Shown: piece after piece, positions 7,165 through 16,445 of the stretch
Position numbering within the stretch: position 1 is the stretch's first letter
Layout of the letters: each line of letters begins with the position of its first letter
Assembly (NCBI RefSeq): GCF_019931275.1
Contig: NZ_JAIOTY010000001.1
Coordinates: 1,240,001 to 1,304,000 of the forward strand
DNA: 64,000 bases
DNA from: Nitratidesulfovibrio sp. SRB-5
Lineage (GTDB): Bacteria > Desulfobacterota > Desulfovibrionia > Desulfovibrionales > Desulfovibrionaceae
Direction: 5' to 3'
The notes under the pieces: model-generated
Database searches by the model: none
Told to the model about the DNA's origin: nothing
The model's input: the letters and a program-made list of their open reading frames with translations, nothing else
Made by a program: the position numbers and the translations under genes

Positions 7165-7289
7165 CTTCGCGCAAAAGGGGTCACAAGGGCGTATGGGGCG
7201 GGGAAGGGGCCGCAAGCGGGTGGAGAGGACCGAAGCCCTGCTTTCCGGAAATGTCCGTTGTACCCATGTGCCCCACCGGGGCGCCCCGG

Positions 7290-7310
7290 CATCGGCAAAT
7301 TATGCCGATG
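7290..7310. promoter_or_regulatory. 21-bp palindrome, possible operator
   Basis: CATCGGCA and TGCCGATG are perfect arms around AATTA. On the minus strand the centre contains CATAAT, which could be a -10 box, so a repressor here could block leftward transcription toward fba. Which protein binds is unknown. Confidence 0.4.
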
Positions 7311-7525
7311 TGGCATGCGTGCGACCGGGACTTTTTTCGTATGCACAGGTCGGTTCCCGTGGCACGGGGAACGGGCCGACAATATGTGGTCGTGGAATGA
7401 AATTTGCTGGATTATGCCGGGGCGGGTCAGGTTTTGTTAGGTCACGTCAAGATCATGACGACTCTGACCGGGGCACATGCCGTGCAGGCTGGGGCAACGT
7501 CGACGAACATGGTACGGGGCACGTA

Positions 7526-9970
7526 GTGAGCTATCGTGAAGAAACAAGGGGCGGTGTACTGCCGTTCACTTCCAAGGCCGACACCCTGGAGTGGCTTTCC
7601 GCGTACGATGATCTGCACATACCGCCCCTGCGCTCCTTTCGCGTGGGCGAGTGGCTGACAGCGCGGGATGCAACACTTGCCTCGCTGGCGCGGGCCTTTC
7701 CCGGCGCCATGCTTGCCGTGCGCAGTTCGTGCCGCCGCGAGGATGGCCGGGAAAGCTCCGGTGCGGGGGCCTTCACGTCCGTGCTCGACGTTCCGGCCAA
7801 TGACCGGGATGCCCTTGCCGCTGCCGTGGAGACCGTCATTGCTTCCTATGGTGCCCCCGGCCTCTCCGATTCCCCCGGCCCCGCCAATCCCGCGGACCCT
7901 GACGATCAGGTGCTGGTGCAACCCATGGTCGAAGGCATTGTCGTCAGCGGCGTCATGATGACGCGCGTGCATGCCGACGGCGCGCCATACTACGTGGTCA
8001 ACTACGACGAATCGGGCCAGGCCGACGCCATCACGGGCGGGCGCAACGCCAGCAAGACGGTGTTCGTCTTTCACGATGCGGAAGACGAACACTGGGATTC
8101 GCGCAGGCTGCGTTCGTTCATCGCGCTGGCGCGCAGGGTGGAGGCCCTGTGCGGGCACGATGAACTGGACATGGAATTCTGCCTTGACGGGGCGGGGGTG
8201 CTGCACCTGTTGCAAGTGCGGCCAATCTGCACGCAGGCCCGCTGGATAGCCGGTGCCGACGGGCAGGTGCGCGCCAAGATAGGCTTTGTGGTGGACTTCA
8301 TTTCGGAAAGGGTGGGGCAGTGGCCGGGCCTTTTCGGGCAGCGCACCATTCTGGGCGTGATGCCCGACTGGAACCCGGCGGAAATGATTGGCGTCACCCC
8401 CCGCCTGCTGGCAAGCTCGCTGTACCGAGAACTCATCACCCGCAGGGTGTGGAGCCAGGCCCGCGAATTCATGGGGTACCGCCAGATGCCCCCCGAAGAG
8501 CTGATGCTCATGGTGGCGGGGCGCCCGTTCATCGACGTGCGCGTCAGCTTCAATTCCTTCCTGCCTGCCGGGCTCGACGGGGTCACCGCAGAAACCCTGG
8601 TGGGGGCATGGCTGGACAGGCTGGACACCCACCCGCAATTCCACGACAAGGTGGAGTTTCAGGTGGCCCAGACCGCGCTGGATTTCTGCTTCGACAAACA
8701 TCTGGACGAACGTTATCCGGGGCTGCTGACCCGCGCCCGGCGCGAGGACTTTCGCGCGGCGCTGCACGGGCTGACGGCACGCTGCCTGGAGTCGGGCCAA
8801 CGGTCATCGATGGATTGGGCGTACGAGGCGGTCACGGAACTGCGCAACAGGCAGGCCGCGCGCGGCAGGATATCGGTGGACGCCCTTGCGCAGGGCATGA
8901 AGCCGTTGCCCCAGTTGGTGCTGCTGGCCGAGGATTGCCGCCTGTTCGGCACGTTGCCGTTTTCCATCCTGGCCCGGCATGCGTTTATTGCCGAATCTTT
9001 GCTGCGCTCCACAGTGGAGCGGGGCGCGCTGTCGCCCGAACGGCTGGCGGCGTTCAAGGCCACCATCCGGACCGTTTCCGGCGAGATGTCGCACGATCTC
9101 ATGTCCGTGTGCCGCAACGGCATGGACAGGGAAACGTTTCTGGCTCGCTACGGGCATCTGCGGCCTTGCAGCTACGACATCCTTTCCCCGCGTTACGCGG
9201 ACCGCGACGGGCTGTTCTCGGATTCCAGCCCCGTGTCCATGGTGGATACGGGCGTTCCGTTTGCGCTTACCCCGCAGGAATACAACAACATCGCCTCGCT
9301 CCTGCACGAGGCGCATTTCGGCAACACCCAGCCGGAGGGCCTGCTGGAGTACGCCCGCCGCAGCATCGCCGGGCGCGAACTGGCGAAGTTCATATTTACG
9401 CGCAACCTTTCGGACATGCTGGAAATGCTTGCCCTGTGGGGCGACAGGCTGGGGCTTTCGCGCGACGATCTGTCCCACCTCGAAGTGCGCGACGTCATGG
9501 AATGGGCATCGCATTCCCTGCTGCGTGACGCCCCCGGCTATTTCCGCGAACTGGCCGACAAGGGGCGCGAACTGTTCAACCTCGGGCGCAGCATCAAGCT
9601 TGGATACATCATCCGTTCCGCACGCGACGTGTACGTGGTTCCGCAGCATCGCAGCGCGCCCAACTTCATCGGGCACGGCCGCACGGAAGCGCCGCTGGCG
9701 CGCCTGTACCCCGATTCGCCCTGTTCGGTGGACATTGCCGGGCGTCTGGTATGCATCGAGAACGCGGACCCGGGCTTCGACTGGATATTCTCGCGCGGCA
9801 TCGCCGGGCTGGTGACCATGTTCGGCGGCACCAATTCGCACATGGCCATCCGCTGCGCCGAATACGGCCTGCCAGCGGCCATCGGGGTCGGCGAGTTGCT
9901 GTTCGAACAGGTTACCTCGGCCCAGTCGGCCCTGCTTGATGCTGGCGCCTGCACCCTGCAACCCCTGTGA
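7526..9970 (+). CDS. L-glutamine kinase-like, PEP-synthase-fold enzyme (Cj1418-like)
   Basis: About 814 residues from the chosen GTG. The N-terminal PEP-synthase/PPDK-type ATP-binding domain has AVRSSCRREDGRESSGAGAFTSVLDV at residues 64-89 and ELDMEFCLDG...LLQVRPI near residues 215-236. The C-terminus is the swivelling phosphohistidine domain, MFGGTNSHMAIRCAEYGLPAAIG, with the likely phosphorylated His772. The long middle part does not look like the PEP/pyruvate barrel, so it is not an ordinary PEP synthase. In C. jejuni, Cj1418 of this architecture phosphorylates the amide nitrogen of L-glutamine, the first step of cytidine diphosphoramidate synthesis. The four following genes match the rest of that pathway, which is the main support for the call. 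The start is uncertain: no strong Shine-Dalgarno lies before GTG 7526, and the frame is open upstream. Confidence 0.75.
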   Translation: MSYREETRGGVLPFTSKADTLEWLSAYDDLHIPPLRSFRVGEWLTARDATLASLARAFPGAMLAVRSSCRREDGRESSGAGAFTSVLDVPANDRDALAAAVETVIASYGAPGLSDSPGPANPADPDDQVLVQPMVEGIVVSGVMMTRVHADGAPYYVVNYDESGQADAITGGRNASKTVFVFHDAEDEHWDSRRLRSFIALARRVEALCGHDELDMEFCLDGAGVLHLLQVRPICTQARWIAGADGQVRAKIGFVVDFISERVGQWPGLFGQRTILGVMPDWNPAEMIGVTPRLLASSLYRELITRRVWSQAREFMGYRQMPPEELMLMVAGRPFIDVRVSFNSFLPAGLDGVTAETLVGAWLDRLDTHPQFHDKVEFQVAQTALDFCFDKHLDERYPGLLTRARREDFRAALHGLTARCLESGQRSSMDWAYEAVTELRNRQAARGRISVDALAQGMKPLPQLVLLAEDCRLFGTLPFSILARHAFIAESLLRSTVERGALSPERLAAFKATIRTVSGEMSHDLMSVCRNGMDRETFLARYGHLRPCSYDILSPRYADRDGLFSDSSPVSMVDTGVPFALTPQEYNNIASLLHEAHFGNTQPEGLLEYARRSIAGRELAKFIFTRNLSDMLEMLALWGDRLGLSRDDLSHLEVRDVMEWASHSLLRDAPGYFRELADKGRELFNLGRSIKLGYIIRSARDVYVVPQHRSAPNFIGHGRTEAPLARLYPDSPCSVDIAGRLVCIENADPGFDWIFSRGIAGLVTMFGGTNSHMAIRCAEYGLPAAIGVGELLFEQVTSAQSALLDAGACTLQPL

Positions 9971-9977
9971 GCCACAC

Positions 9978-10601
9978 GTGAATGCACGCCTAGCGCTGAC
10001 CATGCGCGTGACCGAGGCGCCCGGCCACGCCGAACGCCGCGATGCCCTGGCCCAGGACTGGGGGCGGTTTCTTGCCGTGGCCCTGCCGGGCGCGGGGTGG
10101 CTGCCCATGCCCAATGCGGGCGATGACGCCGTGCGTCTGGCCGATGCCTTTGCCGTCAACGGCCTTGTGCTGACCGGCGGCGATGACTGGGGCGTCTTTC
10201 CCGAGCGGGACGCCACCGAGGCGGCCCTGTTCCGCTGGGCCATGGCGCGGGATATCCCCGTTCTGGGGGTGTGCCGGGGCGCGCAGGTCATCAATCACAT
10301 GCTGGGGGGCACTACGCGCGCAACCGACGGCGCGGTGCACGCCGGAACGCGGCACCCCCTGACCGAAAGGCAGGACTGGACGCCGGAAGACGTGAATTCG
10401 TACCACCGCCTGGTGCTGGACCGCGACATGCTGGCGCCCGGGCTTGCATCCGCCGCCCTGGCCCCGGATGGCACGGTGGAGGCATTTCATCTGCCGGGGC
10501 GTCGCGTGGTCGGCGTGCTGTGGCATCCCGAACGAGAACATCCTTACGGGGCGTGCGGCGTGGCGTTGATGCAACGCCTGTTCACGCCGGAGCAGATATG
10601 A
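9978..10601 (+). CDS. Class I glutamine amidotransferase-like hydrolase (gamma-glutamyl-CDP-amidate hydrolase, Cj1417-like)
   Basis: 207 residues. It has the class I GATase fold with nucleophile Cys99 in PVLGVCRGAQ and the catalytic pair His183/Glu185 in LWHPERE. It resembles gamma-Glu-GABA hydrolases (PuuD), but its neighbours point to the C. jejuni Cj1417 reaction: removal of glutamate from CDP-L-glutamine to give cytidine diphosphoramidate. GTG 9978 was chosen because the N-terminal strand (LALTMRVTE) and the HAERRDALAQDWGRFL helix are both needed for the fold; ATG 10002 would cut the first strand. It starts 7 bases after the kinase stop and overlaps the next gene by ATGA, so it is translated from the same mRNA. 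Confidence 0.8.
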   Translation: MNARLALTMRVTEAPGHAERRDALAQDWGRFLAVALPGAGWLPMPNAGDDAVRLADAFAVNGLVLTGGDDWGVFPERDATEAALFRWAMARDIPVLGVCRGAQVINHMLGGTTRATDGAVHAGTRHPLTERQDWTPEDVNSYHRLVLDRDMLAPGLASAALAPDGTVEAFHLPGRRVVGVLWHPEREHPYGACGVALMQRLFTPEQI

Positions 10602-11389
10602 AACACGCCGTGGGCCTTATCCTGGCGGCGGGACGCGGGTCCCGCATGAAGGGGCTTACCGGGGACCGCCCCAAGTGCCTCACCGAACTCGCGGGGCGCC
10701 CCCTGCTGCACTGGCAGCTCGATGCCCTGCGCACTGGCGGGGCCGCGCCGCTGCTGGTGGTGGGCGGCTACCTGGGGCACATGCTGGAGCCGGAGACGCA
10801 AGGCATGCCCGCCGATGCCTACGCCACGCTCGAAAATCCCGCCTGGGCGCGGACCAACATGCTCTCCACCCTGCTGTGTGCCGCGCCGTGGCTGGAACGT
10901 CAGTTCGACCAGGGCGCCGGGCAGGCCGTCATCTCCTATTCGGACATCGTCTACCACCCCGGCCATGTGGCTGCCTTGCTGGCGCACCCCGACCATGTCG
11001 CCATCACCTACGACACGCTTTGGGAACCACTGTGGCGCTTGCGTTTCGGCGATCCGCTGCTGGATGCGGAAACCTTCCGGCAGGAAGGGGGGCGGCTGGC
11101 GGAGATCGGCGGCAAGCCGGGTTCGCTGGACGACATCTGCGGGCAGTACATGGGGCTCATCAAGGTCAGCCGGGAAGGCTGGCGGACGGTGACACAACGT
11201 TGCGCCCGGCTAGGCGACGCGGTGGCGCGCACGGACATGACGGCCTTTCTGCGCCTGCTGCTGGGCGACGACACCCCGGTGGGTGCCGTGCCCGTGGCGG
11301 GGCGCTGGTGCGAAACGGACAGCGGTGACGATCTTGATCGCTACCGGAGGGCGCTGGAAGCGCCCGGCTGGAGCCACGACTGGCGGTAG
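10598..11389 (+). CDS. Nucleotidyltransferase (CTP:phosphoglutamine cytidylyltransferase, Cj1416-like)
   Basis: 263 residues. N-terminal VGLILAAGRGSRMKGLTGDRPKCLTEL is the sugar-nucleotidyltransferase signature, with the glycine-rich loop at residues 10-17. YSDIVYHP supplies a metal-binding aspartate, and the C-terminal GRWCETDSGDDLDRYR is the usual second metal site. In the C. jejuni pathway the homologue joins CTP and L-glutamine phosphate into CDP-L-glutamine and pyrophosphate. Sequence alone does not prove CTP or the acceptor; gene order does most of the work. Its ATG overlaps the stop of the preceding amidotransferase by four bases. Confidence 0.8.
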   Translation: MKHAVGLILAAGRGSRMKGLTGDRPKCLTELAGRPLLHWQLDALRTGGAAPLLVVGGYLGHMLEPETQGMPADAYATLENPAWARTNMLSTLLCAAPWLERQFDQGAGQAVISYSDIVYHPGHVAALLAHPDHVAITYDTLWEPLWRLRFGDPLLDAETFRQEGGRLAEIGGKPGSLDDICGQYMGLIKVSREGWRTVTQRCARLGDAVARTDMTAFLRLLLGDDTPVGAVPVAGRWCETDSGDDLDRYRRALEAPGWSHDWR

Positions 11390-11432
11390 CGGAATTTTTT
11401 CAGGAAAGAACGTGCTTTCGAAGGAGCCAAGC

Positions 11433-12182
11433 ATGAAGACGGAATGGGATTACACGCAACTTGCGGACGCCTACCTGGAACGCCCCGAATATGCCCCCGA
11501 GGTGTTGGAACGGCTGTTCGAACTCGCGGGGCTTCGCGAGGGGGATCTTGTCTGCGACGTGGGGGCCGGTGTGGCGCACCTTACGCTGCCGCTGGCCGGC
11601 AAGGGGTACAAGGTGATCGCGGTGGAACCCAATGACGCCATGCGCGCCAACGGCCAGAAGCGCACCGCCGCCTTTGCCAACGTCCAGTGGGTGGACGCCA
11701 CCGGTGAAGATACGCAGCAGCAGTCCGGCGCGTTCGATTTCGTGTCCTTCGGTTCGTCGTTCAACGTCACGGACAGGACACTGGCGCTCAAGGAAACGTA
11801 TCGCCTGCTGAAGCCCGGACGGTGGTTTACCTGCATGTGGAACCATCGCGACCTTGACGACGCGATCCAGACCGACATCGAAGGCATCATCCGCGGGTTC
11901 ATTCCGGACTACGGCTATGGCACCCGCCGGGAAGACCAGGCCGACGTCATTGCCGGTTCCGGGCTGTTCACCAACGTTCAGGCCGTAAGCGGCGGGGTGA
12001 TGCACGTGCAGACCGTCGAAGGCGTGATCGAGGCGTGGCGTTCGCACGGCACGCTGCACCGCCAGGCGGGGGATAGGTTCGAACAGGTCATTGCCGCCAT
12101 AGCCGACTACCTGCACGCGCTGGGCGTGGAGACGATCGACATTCCCTATACCACCCGCGCGTGGATAGCCCGCAAGGCCTAG
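11433..12182 (+). CDS. Class I SAM-dependent methyltransferase (Cj1419/Cj1420-like)
   Basis: 249 residues. The Rossmann methyltransferase motif I, VCDVGAGVAHLTLPLA, lies at residues 40-55, with an acidic EPNDAM after strand 2 and FDFVSFGSSFNV as motif II. KPGRWFTCMWNHRDLDD follows as the post-motif. AAGGAG lies 7 bases before ATG 11433. In C. jejuni two related methyltransferases sit next to the phosphoramidate genes and are proposed to make the O-methyl group of O-methyl phosphoramidate. By position this one would methylate the phosphoramidate or its nucleotide-linked precursor. Only one copy is present here. Confidence 0.75.
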   Translation: MKTEWDYTQLADAYLERPEYAPEVLERLFELAGLREGDLVCDVGAGVAHLTLPLAGKGYKVIAVEPNDAMRANGQKRTAAFANVQWVDATGEDTQQQSGAFDFVSFGSSFNVTDRTLALKETYRLLKPGRWFTCMWNHRDLDDAIQTDIEGIIRGFIPDYGYGTRREDQADVIAGSGLFTNVQAVSGGVMHVQTVEGVIEAWRSHGTLHRQAGDRFEQVIAAIADYLHALGVETIDIPYTTRAWIARKA

Positions 12183-12185
12183 GCC

Positions 12186-12773
12186 ATGACGGCACGGCAC
12201 CCTAGCGGCAGGGTCATCTGGATCACCGGGTTTTCCGGCGCGGGCAAGACCACTCTGGCCAGGGTTCTCATGCCCTGCCTGGGGGAACGCGCGGTGCTGC
12301 TGGACGGCGACGAACTGCGCGAGGTGCTGGACGCGGCCCGGTGCGGCTTTGACCGGGAAAGCAGGCAGCGCCTTGCCTTCACCTATGCGCGCATGGCGCG
12401 CATGTTGGCCTTGCAAGGGTTTACCGTGGTGGTCGCAACCATCAGCCTGTTCCACGACCTGCATGCCTGGAACCGGGAACACCTGCCCGGGTATCTCGAA
12501 GTGTGGCTCGATGTGCCGGAGGAGGAACGCCGCAGGCGGGATCCCAAGGGCCTCTATGCCGCCGCTGCCAACGGTCAGGTGCGGGACATGGCCTGCGAGC
12601 GCATGGTGGAGGTGCCGCGCGAACCGCATCTGACCCTGCGTTTTGGCGAACACGGGGATGTCGGGGCCTCCGCGCGCGCGGTGCTGGAAATGTTGGATGT
12701 GCCCGGGCTGGCGGAGTCGCCGGAAAAGGGCGAGGCGTCCCTTGCCCCGGCATCCGGAACGGGGGGCGCATGA
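12186..12773 (+). CDS. APS-kinase-like P-loop kinase (cytidine diphosphoramidate kinase, Cj1415-like)
   Basis: 195 residues. P-loop GFSGAGKTT at residues 15-23, LDGDELREVLD as in APS kinases, a YLEVWLDVPEEERRRRDPKGLY segment, and a degenerate C-terminal tail. It resembles CysC, yet it stands beside no sulfate-assimilation gene (cysD, cysN, cysH), and sulfate reducers use APS directly. In C. jejuni the APS-kinase-like Cj1415 phosphorylates the 3'-hydroxyl of cytidine diphosphoramidate; that role fits this context better. ATG 12186 follows the methyltransferase stop by 3 bases. Confidence 0.75.
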   Translation: MTARHPSGRVIWITGFSGAGKTTLARVLMPCLGERAVLLDGDELREVLDAARCGFDRESRQRLAFTYARMARMLALQGFTVVVATISLFHDLHAWNREHLPGYLEVWLDVPEEERRRRDPKGLYAAAANGQVRDMACERMVEVPREPHLTLRFGEHGDVGASARAVLEMLDVPGLAESPEKGEASLAPASGTGGA

Positions 12774-12843
12774 TGGGCGGGGGATACGGGCGCCTGGAAT
12801 GGGGCAGTGCATGCCGGGGCCGCAAGACGGCGGGGAGCGTGGC

Positions 12844-14145
12844 ATGAGTCGCATTGCCGACGTGGAGGCGTTGTGCCGCCTGGGAATGTTGCACCTGCAC
12901 AAGGAGGAGCCGGACCGGGCCAAGCGCCTGTTCCTGCGGGCCTGGCAGGCCATGCCGGAGCAGACGGGCATCGCGTCGCTGCTGGCGCAGGCGCACCGGG
13001 CGGAGGCGGTCCGGCGTCATGCAGAGCACGGCTGCAACGGGCGGATGCTGTTCGTCATCCGGGGCTATTTTCTGTCGTATTTCCTGCCGGTACTGCGCCT
13101 GTTGCCCCCGGACCGCGTGGATGTGGATACCGGCGGCGACAGCTGGGGGGTGGATGGTGCCGCCCGCGCAGAGGTGCTTGCCCTGGGGTTTGGTCCCTGC
13201 GAGCACGTTCCCCGACCAGAGTGGTGGCGCTATGCCATGGTGGCTGCGGACCACGCCATCCAGATGCATTTCCCCGTCACCGGACCGGAGGATGTGCTGC
13301 CCCCCGTGGTGGCGTATCTGGCGCACAATACCACGTATGCGGGCGGAGCCGTTCATCCCTACCAGAGCCACTGCATCTATCCCTTCGAGGCATTGGCGTT
13401 GCAGCAGCGGGCCCAGGCCCCATGGCAGCAGTGCCTGTTCACCGGGCCATACCAGTTTACGGAAGAGATGCTGCGCCTGATGTTCGCGGACAGGGCCGCA
13501 CTGCGCGGACGAGCCATGCGGGAGTTGGGGCAGGAAGACCGTGGCGGGCCGCTGGTGGTCTGCTATGCCTCGGCGCTGGACAACTGCCACGAGGTGGCCG
13601 ATGGCCTGCGGGGGCTGGCCGACGCCCTGCACCCGCAGGGCGGACTGGTGGTGCTGAAACCGTTTCCGGACGACGTGGAACGCTACGCGGCGCTGGACAT
13701 GGGCCGTGCACTGGTCTGGTCGCGTTCGGGGGCGGGCGGCAACGAACTGCGCATGGCCGCAGACTGCGTACTGTGCGGCCTTGCCGGGTCCACGCTGCTT
13801 TCGGTGTTCCTGACCGGGCAGCGCGTGCTGCCCTACCACACCGAGCAGGAACGGGAATACTGCGAAGGCAGCCGGGACCGCCAGAAATTGCGCCCGCGCG
13901 GCACGGTCAGGCCCGATGCCAACCCCAGGGGGCAGGCCATCATCGCCGGGTTGGGCGGGTCATGTTCCATCGCGGATGTGCCCGCGTTGCAGCGGCATCT
14001 TGAGGCGCTGCTGGATGACGCGGAGTATCCAGCAAGGAACGAGGCCATCCGGCTGAGCGTACTGGGCCGCAGCGATGTGCGTCACGGCGCGCGACGAACG
14101 GCGGAACTGCTGCTTTCCCTGCTGGATGGCGGACGTACATTGTAG
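12844..14145 (+). CDS. Candidate CDP-phosphoramidate (CDP-glycerol-transferase-like) transferase
   Basis: 433 residues. A short helical, TPR-like N-terminus (residues 1-55) precedes a two-domain GT-B-like part. Blocks near GPLVVCYASALDNCHEV and RMAADCVLCGLAGSTLLSVFLTG resemble the nucleotide-binding half of CDP-glycerol glycerophosphotransferases and capsule phosphotransferases, which take a phosphoryl group from a CDP donor. Directly after a CDP-amidate pathway, the likely job is transfer of phosphoramidate to a glycan (the Cj1421/Cj1422 role). This is inference; no acceptor is visible. Its nearest relative in the window is the broken gene at 14281-15355. It starts 70 bases after the kinase. 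A small frame at 12770-12847 shows no clear coding signal. Confidence 0.5.
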   Translation: MSRIADVEALCRLGMLHLHKEEPDRAKRLFLRAWQAMPEQTGIASLLAQAHRAEAVRRHAEHGCNGRMLFVIRGYFLSYFLPVLRLLPPDRVDVDTGGDSWGVDGAARAEVLALGFGPCEHVPRPEWWRYAMVAADHAIQMHFPVTGPEDVLPPVVAYLAHNTTYAGGAVHPYQSHCIYPFEALALQQRAQAPWQQCLFTGPYQFTEEMLRLMFADRAALRGRAMRELGQEDRGGPLVVCYASALDNCHEVADGLRGLADALHPQGGLVVLKPFPDDVERYAALDMGRALVWSRSGAGGNELRMAADCVLCGLAGSTLLSVFLTGQRVLPYHTEQEREYCEGSRDRQKLRPRGTVRPDANPRGQAIIAGLGGSCSIADVPALQRHLEALLDDAEYPARNEAIRLSVLGRSDVRHGARRTAELLLSLLDGGRTL

Positions 14146-14192
14146 TTGTTTGTGCCATGCGGTTGCCATCCGAAAGGGTGGGGACCACGTGA

Positions 14193-14243
14193 CGAAAGAA
14201 CAGCCGGGTGACCGCAAAACGTGGTCACCCGGCTGTTCTTTCG
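14193..14243. terminator. Bidirectional terminator, 21-bp perfect inverted repeat
   Basis: Arms 14193-14213 and 14223-14243 are perfectly complementary around a 9-base loop (GCAAAACGT), with AAAG/CTTT at the base. It lies between two convergent transferase-like genes, about 45 bases from each end, and should stop transcription from both sides. Confidence 0.8.
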
Positions 14244-14280
14244 ACGCATCAATGCCGGATCAGTGTGAAGGGTGAGGACG

Positions 14281-15355
14281 CTACGCGGCGGGGCTGTCTG
14301 TATCGCCGAGCACACCGGAGAAGCGCCCTCGCCTGAATACGGAAAGCACTTCCATGGCCGTCATGGCGGGGGCGTTGACGATGTGATAGCGCCCGTAGGT
14401 TTCGTCCTGCAATGCCTTCAGTCTGTCTTTGTAGGTTTGCGAGCTCATCGTTTCCTGAAAGTTGCGCAGAAGGGCGCCGACATCTGTAATAGGGATGGAA
14501 CCCAGCCGGGCCTCAAGGTCTCGGCAACGTGGAAAGAGGGGGTGCTGAAAAACGCCGCGTTCATAGTATGTGTTTGTACGTCCGATGTCGAATTCGCGCG
14601 TTGTGTGGTATACGGTGATGTTTTGTCCAAGCATGACAGCCGTCATGAGTGCCGTTGTGGAGTATGATGTGAGGAAGCAATCTGCGGCAAGGCGCGGATC
14701 TATATGTCTGAAGTCGCGCATCCCGAACGTGGTGACACCTGCCTTGGATATTTTTTCTTGCAATTCAGTATGCCACGCATACGTCTTGACGATAAGATTC
14801 GTATGCTGTGAGATTTCTATAAGCGGTTCTACAAGTTCATGATGGTCATCCATTATTGTTGTAAAACATACGACCAGTGGAAGTGATGTATCCTTGAAAC
14901 CGTATTCTTTCAGGATAGTATCGCGCAGAATTTTCTTGTTGTTTACATACAAATTGAGAGCGTCATTGTCGAACTGAAAAAGTCCAGTGTATATTGTATT
15001 GCAGTTTTTGTTTCCGTTATGGGTGAATTTTTCACAGATAACAATTTCATGGTCGAAATCATATTGTGTAGCTTCAAGTGAGGCGTGGTCGATGAGAAGC
15101 TTCTTCTTTGGCCTTTTTGTGTCATCCACCCATTCCCACTGTTCGCTGGTGTACAGTCCCATGGCGTATGGAGAAATATCTATCTTGCGCGAAGCAGGGA
15201 TGACGCTATAGCCTTCGTGCCAAGCGCACCATGCATTCTGAAGTTTTCCCGATGGTGATTATGTCGATGAACTTGCTGGGTATGAGTTTGATTATTGGAT
15301 AATATTTGTGCAAGACTGTGGATGATACAGGCATTGCAATTTTTTCTATGGTCAT
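14281..15355 (-). pseudogene. AT-rich, frameshifted paralogue of the candidate phosphoramidate transferase
   Basis: An intact tail of 293 codons starts at ATG 15162. The protein clearly continues upstream in another frame: ATG 15355 (MTIEKIAMPVSSTVLHKYY) reads to a stop, and the two frames join at an A4 run on the minus strand (15244-15247). Removing one A gives one ~358-residue protein. The joined N-terminus aligns with 12844-14145: LHKYYPIIKLIPSKFIDIITIG matches SYFLPVLRLLPPDRVDVDTGG. Downstream, PLVVCFTTIMDDHHELVEPL matches PLVVCYASALDNCHEVADGL, and AADCFLTSYSTTALMTAVMLGQ matches AADCVLCGLAGSTLLSVFLTGQ. G+C is far lower than in its neighbours, suggesting transfer from another source. The break may be a real mutation, a phase-variable state or a sequencing error. 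Confidence 0.7.
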
Positions 15356-15635
15356 GGTGCACCTGTCCTTGAAGCATGTATTGCTTTTGGCCTTATCTGC
15401 GCCGGGGGTCAATATCAGAGCGGTCTGGGCAGCGGGCAGCCCGTGATGCGGAGTTCGTCGGGTTGTCCGGACGGCACGCGGCAGCAGGCGGGGAAACAAA
15501 GAGTTGGTGCCCCCTTCGGTTCATGGCTTTCCGCTACGACCCTTTTGATTCTCATGCTGCCGTGCGTGTGTCGCCCGCATTCGGACAGGGCCCATCCGGC
15601 GATAAGTGGCGCGGGCAACGAGGCGGCGTGCGCGG

Positions 15636-16445
15636 CTATATCTCGCCGCCGGTCTGGTCGACGGTCTGGGCGTTTGCTTGCCCACCGGCTCCGTCGCCCT
15701 GCACTCTGGCCAGCACGTCCATGGCCTCGTGGTCGGTGAAGTCGAAGCGCAGCGGGGTAAGGGTGATCCACCCTTCGGTCAGCAGGGCGCGGTCGGTGCC
15801 GGGGGCCACTGTTTCCGGCGGAATGACGCCGTTCAGCCACCAGTACGAGCCGCCGCGCGGGTCCGTGCGGTGGTCATACCAGTCCTTCCACACGGCGCGG
15901 GTCTGGGGGCAGGCGCGCACGCCCTTCACCTCGGGCATGGGCAGGGCGGGGTAGTTCAGGTTCACGACGCAGCGGGCGGGAAGGGCATTCCAGTCCAGCG
16001 TGGCCAGCAGCCCGGCGGCGTGGGCGGCCTGTCCGGAAAGGTCGGCGGGCCGGAACGAATCGTACGAAACGGCCAGGGCGGGGTAGCCCATGTGCGCCGC
16101 CTCCGTCGCGGCGGACACCGTACCGGAGTACAGGATGTCCGGCCCCACGTTGGCCCCGGCGTTGATGCCGGACACCACCACGTCGGGCTTCTTGTCCAGC
16201 AGGCACGACAGGCCCAGCTTCACGCAGTCGGTGGGGGTGCCGTACACCCCGCGCCCGCGAAAGCCGTTTTCGTGGAATTCCTTCACGCGCAGGGGCAGGC
16301 TGATGGTCACGGCGTGGCCCACGGCGGACTGTTCGGTGACCGGGGCCACCACGTGCACCTCGTGCCCGGCGTCCAGCAGGGCCTTGTACATGGCGCGCAG
16401 GCCGGGGGCCTGGATGCCGTCGTCGTTGGTCAGGGCTACGATCAT
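15636..16445 (-). CDS. surE: 5'/3'-nucleotidase SurE
   Basis: 269 residues. N-terminal MIVALTNDDGIQAPG supplies the metal-binding Asp8-Asp9; TEQSAVGHAVT and VSGINAGANVGPD are the other SurE signatures. It removes phosphate from 5'- and 3'-nucleotides with a divalent metal. The C-terminus has a Gly/Gln/Thr-rich tail of about 20 residues. GAGAGGATA lies upstream of the ATG at 16445. It diverges from the exoribonuclease gene across 366 bases. Confidence 0.93.
   Translation of the reverse strand: MIVALTNDDGIQAPGLRAMYKALLDAGHEVHVVAPVTEQSAVGHAVTISLPLRVKEFHENGFRGRGVYGTPTDCVKLGLSCLLDKKPDVVVSGINAGANVGPDILYSGTVSAATEAAHMGYPALAVSYDSFRPADLSGQAAHAAGLLATLDWNALPARCVVNLNYPALPMPEVKGVRACPQTRAVWKDWYDHRTDPRGGSYWWLNGVIPPETVAPGTDRALLTEGWITLTPLRFDFTDHEAMDVLARVQGDGAGGQANAQTVDQTGGEI

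Follow-up and report, generated by a model that had tools for sequence, protein, structure and literature searches.

An accessory gene island of Nitratidesulfovibrio sp. SRB-5 predicted to make an activated phosphoramidate for cell-surface decoration

Why should a kinase with the fold of phosphoenolpyruvate (PEP) synthase be encoded in one run with an amidotransferase, a nucleotidyltransferase, an S-adenosylmethionine (SAM)-dependent methyltransferase and a protein resembling adenosine 5'-phosphosulfate (APS) kinase? The question is raised by a gene block of Nitratidesulfovibrio sp. SRB-5 (genome 4.12 Mb), part of an accessory island that lies in a stretch of 64,000 nucleotides, analysed as a whole and here called the window (contig NZ_JAIOTY010000001.1, positions 1,240,001 to 1,304,000). 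The nearest named relative at this locus, among the best 80 loci described below, is Nitratidesulfovibrio liaohensis XJ01 (L108), and because of this kinship we regard the organism as a sulfate reducer. A previous interpretation made from the letters alone (the sequence-only reading) had listed these five genes and likened them to the phosphoramidate pathway of Campylobacter jejuni. They are indeed present in that order on the + strand (7526-12773), their start codons being chosen among several possible ones, and Pfam recognises in their products PPDK_N with PEP-utilizers, Peptidase_C26/GATase, NTP_transf_3, Methyltransf_25/11 and APS_kinase, respectively. The span it gave them, up to 14145, needed correction: the five end at 12773, and the remainder is a sixth gene (12844-14145) that is also an island member, with another (14281-15162, - strand) beyond it. 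Our answer is that an activated phosphorus-nitrogen group, meant for cell-surface decoration, is very probably what the gene block produces.

On NF004508, with its cut-off of 501, the kinase reaches 975.1 bits. No PEP synthase model gives it more than 49.7 bits, the best having a cut-off of 883, so that it falls outside PEP synthase; for the E. coli PpsA control the values are 1317 bits with the PpsA model and 67.1 bits with NF004508, a model whose cut-off was passed by none of 14 control genomes. Its swivel histidine, which the sequence-only reading had described as intact, is His772 and is kept in all 96 aligned kinases with a residue at that column. For the amidotransferase the best NCBIfam family is NF045546, gamma-glutamyl-CDP-amidate hydrolase (CDP, cytidine diphosphate), at 87.5 bits, more than twice the score of the next family (39.2). 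It is not a member of PuuD (32.3 bits against a cut-off of 266), and E. coli PuuD itself, at 574 bits on its own model, reaches 29 bits on NF045546. The same family matches all 65 scanned amidotransferases at E<1e-10, the next family matching 39; these 65, out of 89 found, make up alignment A2, from which long, fused, partial and near-duplicate rows were left out. The catalytic triad put forward earlier, Cys99/His183/Glu185, keeps its numbering with the GTG start and is invariant among aligned relatives (Cys 87/87, His 86/86, Glu 86/86).

The nucleotidyltransferase matches NTP_transf_3 at 56.9 bits, and two of its residues, numbered from the ATG at 10598 that overlaps the stop of the amidotransferase gene, are widely conserved (Lys26 in 81/86 and Asp116 in 84/86); among solved structures its second-best match is 1jyk, a CTP:phosphocholine cytidylyltransferase (CTP, cytidine triphosphate). 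The APS-kinase-like protein (APSK) exceeds the cut-off of NF004041 (148.5 bits; 127) and misses those of both canonical APS kinase models, TIGR00455 (93.4; 138.7) and PRK03846 (74.9; 163), and accordingly is not assigned to canonical APS kinase, whereas the E. coli CysC control gives 102, 297 and 378 bits on the three. Alignment A3 combines 44 of the 66 APSKs with E. coli CysC. Across the group Phe89 is kept in 63/65 and Asn96 in 58/65, E. coli CysC having other residues at both positions, and the column of the window's Leu63 holds Asn in 45/65 and in CysC and Leu in 11/65; this Asn we take to be a substrate contact in APS kinases. The island's APSK is the sole one in the genome and, as the sequence-only reading had remarked of this otherwise puzzling kinase, no sulfate-assimilation gene was recognised beside it. 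That reading had also named the result that would speak against it, namely genuine PEP synthase, PuuD and CysC; because of the NCBIfam scores and their E. coli controls, none of the three enzymes is, at family level, its ordinary counterpart.

These genes travel together well beyond this genome. A scan of named genomes returned at least 590 pattern stretches, at least 580 of which encode kinase relatives (with two patterns in the scan, a gene can enter the count twice); the best 80 loci served for comparison, a biased sample because they were chosen as closest to one query. They include loci from Desulfovibrio, Brumimicrobium, Rhodospirillaceae, Pseudomonas, Verrucomicrobia, Omnitrophota, Planctomycetota and Prochlorococcus, and no Campylobacter locus is among them. 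Across the 79 loci of the census (L098 was omitted as a copy of L063) the amidotransferase is found at 70, the nucleotidyltransferase at 74, the APSK at 61 and the methyltransferase family at 18, and all four donor genes occur together at 57. Where at least 7 kb was available on each side (41 loci), the corresponding counts are 38, 40, 37 and 7, and kinase, amidotransferase, nucleotidyltransferase and APSK are combined in 35. The gap between kinase and amidotransferase genes has a median of 29 bases in 70 loci. Judged by this linkage, the donor genes are a co-inherited module. Within the phylum (395 genomes) the kinase is above its cut-off in seven genomes and the amidotransferase family (E<1e-30) is present in eight, namely those seven and G294; at most seven candidates were considered per genome in the latter search, and at least some of the matching genomes have their own loci in the alignment. 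In G294 a short kinase fragment is flanked by amidotransferase and APSK (L040), apparently the remnant of a decayed module copy in another genus of the family.

Kinase relatives also occur on 14 plasmid records. The module, whole or in part, lies on plasmids of Smac51, Azospirillum, Vibrio alfacsensis, Pseudohalocynthiibacter and Agrobacterium vitis, those of Smac51 and Azospirillum having the same gene set. None of 19 pattern stretches on viral contigs encodes a relative; an unverified and unannotated record from human faeces, with the label Bacteriophage sp., encodes a kinase of the family at 739 bits (L069, 676-2988). The model match of the L065 kinase starts only at residue 182 of 966 (locus 7434-7980), and the reading frames at L036, L037 and L066, longer as well, are of similar length.

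By analogy with C. jejuni, the family scores and the conserved gene set suggest how a donor would be built. The kinase, as a predicted L-glutamine kinase, would act ahead of a nucleotidyltransferase that joins phosphoglutamine to the cytidine monophosphate of CTP; the amidotransferase would then split off glutamate to leave CDP-amidate, the 3'-hydroxyl of which would be phosphorylated by the APS-kinase-like enzyme. The invariant amidotransferase triad and the proximity of its gene to that of the kinase fit a gamma-glutamyl intermediate. Gene linkage and fold suggest that two proteins resembling glycosyltransferases of the B type (GT-B) would move the phosphoramidate off the CDP donor and onto hydroxyl groups of a surface glycan, and that the SAM methyltransferase may either make O-methyl phosphoramidate or methylate the acceptor. 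Taken together, we consider it probable that the island makes and uses an activated phosphoramidate that is passed to a surface glycan.

The methyltransferase belongs to the cluster wherever its family (A5) was detected at high score. With at most six candidates scored per genome, the family exceeds 300 bits in five of the 395 phylum genomes, all of them kinase carriers and all within the cluster, the next score being 130.1 bits; because all five sit in the query alignment, the informative part of this search is the absence elsewhere. That alignment contains 20 of 23 methyltransferases (L098, L035 and L108 were left out) and four from other genomes. Of the seven kinase carriers, G055 and G247 have no A5 match. 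A tree of 25 sequences falls into two groups separated by a long branch with support of 1.0. Methyltransferase and kinase are each 73% identical between the window and G429. Between the window and its sister genome G003 the other island genes retain 88-96% DNA identity and the methyltransferase 55%, or 37% at the protein level, and in the sister G006 its divergence from the window is the same at that level. The 37%-identical version occupies 7788-8586 of L166, against 11391-12146 of the window, in an island that is otherwise conserved, and sequence likeness resumes in the final dozen codons. The simplest reading of this divergence is that one gene may have been exchanged in place by recombination. 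On an uncultured Desulfovibrio contig, two methyltransferases of the family are adjacent (L082, 9627-11472).

The products of 12844-14145 and of 14281-15162, the two candidate transferases, are paralogous to each other, with 27% identity across 236 aligned columns (E 1e-24). The second gene has a G+C content of 48% (55% at third positions) against 67% for the window, as if it had been acquired separately. Their family (A4), searched with at most four candidates scored per genome, was found in two of the 395 phylum genomes, each of which carries the kinase and is represented in the query alignment; relatives adjoin the module after the APSK in ZJ369 and twice in Smac51. A separate protein group is encoded close to the module, with 26 entries from 25 genomes or records (L012 and L165 being one gene), and all nine members scanned exceed the PF04464 cut-off. 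In a profile comparison the GT-B-like family matches this group, represented by an alignment (A7) of 20 of the 26 entries, at 97.7% (E 2.4e-12, 318 columns); an earlier profile run had given 93.5-95.2% for four seeds of the group and at most 0.2% for nine other neighbour families, one of them the pair L065 and L081 taken up below. A model of residues 65-433 of the 12844-14145 protein, built from 22 sequences, has a two-domain GT-B fold with a predicted local distance difference test (pLDDT) value of 79.7 and supersedes one from six sequences (pLDDT 49.5). Among the 50 structural matches shown, its best template modelling (TM) scores, 0.57, include UDP-N-acetylglucosamine (UDP-GlcNAc; UDP, uridine diphosphate) 2-epimerase at rank 1 and TagF with CDP-glycerol at rank 39; the fold match is not independent of glycerophosphotransferase-like proteins, because such rows were in the modelling alignment. 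Profile and model together point to the pair as remote relatives of CDP-glycerol glycerophosphotransferases and candidate phosphoramidate transferases.

A transferase of the sulfotransferase fold was also considered and rejected: PF00685 matches three and PF13469 two of 136 neighbour proteins, but none of the seven island proteins. Sulfotransferase-like proteins, with a P-loop seen by eye, adjoin the module in L160, L161 and L164. By eye, G429 has insertion-sequence remains after its APSK, where other genomes have candidate transferases (L158, 12398-13228).

A number of points weigh against the reading of the island as a source of phosphoramidate for a glycan. The links of the kinase and the 3'-kinase to C. 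jejuni presuppose that Cj1418 is a member of NF004508 and Cj1415 of NF004041, as is presumably the case, and the likeness to Cj1415-Cj1420 in general is one of family models and gene order. No Cj1415-1418 protein appears by name among the listed solved-structure matches of the island proteins. The linkage families were built from cluster members, and their specificity is partly by construction. No NCBIfam equivalog model fits or names the nucleotidyltransferase, related cytidylyltransferases accept several substrates (PMC12275187), and the amidotransferase, at 87.5 bits, does not reach the curated cut-off of 250 of NF045546. The last two points also favour an alternative in which the kinase uses another amine or amide, or the nucleotidyltransferase another nucleotide, the product being a nucleoside diphosphate-activated group without a free P-N bond; we think this improbable, as the triad is invariant among amidotransferases whose gene lies so close to that of the kinase. 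That an ordinary PEP synthase, a PuuD-like hydrolase and a sulfate-assimilation APS kinase have come together by chance is hardly credible: the Pfam domains are generic, as this would have it, but the NCBIfam scores with their controls, the conserved module and the lack of a second APSK in the genome all contradict it.

Other objections concern transfer and target. Neither candidate transferase matches any Pfam family above its cut-off (the 12844-14145 protein gives 15.3 bits on TPR_2, cut-off 27), and a His common to the PF04464-like cluster group is replaced in both, so that neither is assigned to PF04464. Two other PF04464 members, L065 and L081, match the pair at 0.1% as a two-sequence alignment, the family grown from a Vibrio PF04464 protein having reached only these two members, and G429 has no GT-B-like protein within the 18 kb read, though its five enzymes are present. 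No glycan gene was recognised adjoining the island, which would suit a module whose product is a small metabolite, either a phosphoramidate or a phosphorylated amide, that is exported or used in the cell and does not decorate a glycan. Such a product would also suit Agrobacterium vitis, in which genes for a LysE exporter and a CDP-alcohol phosphatidyltransferase come after those for kinase, amidotransferase and nucleotidyltransferase and no APSK was found within the 20 kb read (plasmid L068, 8938-14027; perhaps a small-molecule or lipid phosphoramidate there). We nevertheless hold it to be unlikely for the island, which has an APSK and two GT-B-like proteins and in which none of seven proteins matches an exporter family; moreover, the neighbours of its relatives include NeuB (12 loci), cytidylyltransferase (12), UDP-GlcNAc epimerase (10), DegT (26) and flagellin (6), as well as glycerophosphotransferase-like proteins. 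Among 136 neighbour proteins (set A6, of 155; 13 long or already-known ones were dropped and six were not listed) a formyltransferase family ranks first (21) and PF04464 second (11). The sugar-gene and flagellin neighbours speak for surface glycans generally and not for this strain. The phosphoramidate pathway of the sequence-only reading is supported for donor synthesis by the NCBIfam scores and the conserved module; its surface-glycan target did not find a counterpart at the locus itself, the context coming from other genomes. Two neighbour clusters, overlapping and of 30 and 19 loci, are alike by eye in one stretch (L090, 8610-9971; L121, 15095-15742), one carrying a formyltransferase domain and the other having no Pfam match.

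Within the genus the kinase is present in three of eight genomes, the window's and those of two sisters that also have the island, and the island (~8.5 kb) is missing from the other five. In these the aldolase gene and the surE-like region, flanks that were named by eye, are 62-137 bases apart and the stretch corresponding to ~7190-15690 is missing; long flank pieces align at 92-96% to the five, and short end pieces of G002, a genome that is 75% complete, at 88-89%. By these alignments the gene block is an accessory, movable island. Among the island-free genomes, G001 and G004 each encode an APSK that scores higher, at 204 and 185 bits respectively, and none was found in G002 (at its 75% completeness), G005 and G007. 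The coordinates of the island and its features are collected in Table 1; the inverted repeat between the convergent genes is a probable terminator serving both.

Table 1. Predicted features of the island, in window positions
Feature	Position	Strand	Basis
Predicted L-glutamine kinase, PEP-synthase fold, swivel His772	7526-9970	+	GTG start; NF004508 score, His conservation
Predicted gamma-glutamyl-CDP-amidate hydrolase, class I amidotransferase, Cys99/His183/Glu185	9978-10601	+	GTG start; NF045546 is best family
Predicted CTP:phosphoglutamine cytidylyltransferase (nucleotidyltransferase)	10598-11389	+	NTP_transf_3; structure match; Lys26/Asp116
SAM methyltransferase, candidate phosphoramidate O-methyltransferase	11433-12182	+	Family A5 linkage; another version in sisters G003 and G006
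Predicted CDP-amidate 3'-kinase, APS-kinase-like, PRK05541 subfamily	12186-12773	+	NF004041 above cut-off
GT-B-like protein, 433 residues, helical N-terminus, candidate phosphoramidate transferase	12844-14145	+	Profile match and predicted fold
Perfect inverted repeat, 21 bases, 9-base loop	14193-14243		Between two convergent genes
Paralogue of the 12844-14145 protein, second candidate transferase	14281-15162	-	Identity and composition
Accessory island, fructose-bisphosphate aldolase gene to surE-like region	7190-15690		Flank alignments; ends approximate

If such a module is conserved across many phyla, P-N chemistry would have to be seen as a common trait. Moreover, the island methyltransferase and the two candidate transferases are candidates for steps of the Campylobacter pathway that are unassigned, and since their source is a Nitratidesulfovibrio relative, proposals about them are testable outside a pathogen. 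One may speculate further, on a view that we hold to be possible if on balance doubtful, that O-methyl phosphoramidate is a widespread bacterial envelope decoration partly borne on mobile islands, with the cluster methyltransferase as its O-methyltransferase, the TagF-like GT-B proteins as its transferases, and methyltransferase swapping as a way to vary a surface epitope, for example against phages.

How the modification has been described elsewhere bears on how much of this is new. A 2019 review gave it as so far identified only in Campylobacter (PMC6429109), a 2022 review termed the glutamine kinase C. jejuni-specific (PMC9561416), and a further source regards the pathways for methyl phosphoramidate decoration as still to be elucidated (PMC12409886). 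Xanthomonas lipopolysaccharide bears phosphoramide, no pathway being named in the passages concerned (PMC8042644). As far as the accessible passages of the open-licence literature go, no report of a phosphoramidate pathway in sulfate reducers was found, and the only non-Campylobacter report is that of a cluster on Borg extrachromosomal elements, assigned in 2025 to O-methyl phosphoramidate by structural analysis (PMC12660748). By its description there, the Borg cluster resembles the island in lying outside Campylobacter and in being assigned to this chemistry, Borgs being archaeal elements. Within the same literature, the core of the pathway is of a known kind. The passages at hand do not describe the island setting, a methyltransferase that is both dedicated and swapped, or the TagF-like pair.

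Two protein families offer partial parallels. The APSK of the island shares with CysC the fold family, the P-loop, the DGD motif and Arg60, but belongs to the PRK05541 subfamily, has Phe89 and Asn96, and has no recognised sulfate-assimilation gene alongside. TagF and the PF04464 glycerophosphotransferases share a GT-B-like fold with the window pair, and both would rely on the same chemistry, in which a CDP donor gives up a phospho-group; unlike them, the pair does not reach PF04464 and lacks the His conserved in cluster-borne members. Also among the closest known systems is the C. jejuni pathway. There Cj1415-1418 turn glutamine, ATP and CTP into CDP-phosphoramidate 3'-phosphate (PMC11800397), mutants without Cj1421 or Cj1422 lack the group on one of two sugars, depending on the gene lost, and no assignment is given for Cj1419 and Cj1420, since their knockouts showed no apparent change (PMC11800397). 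The same four enzyme types recur in the island, where the order of kinase, hydrolase, nucleotidyltransferase and APSK follows the locus numbers from Cj1418 to Cj1415; both clusters include a methyltransferase gene, and the two transferase genes of C. jejuni (PMC3907429, PMC11800397) have candidates in the island. Unlike in C. jejuni, the methyltransferase of Nitratidesulfovibrio stands between nucleotidyltransferase and APSK, and the whole is carried on an accessory island, next to which no capsule genes were seen.

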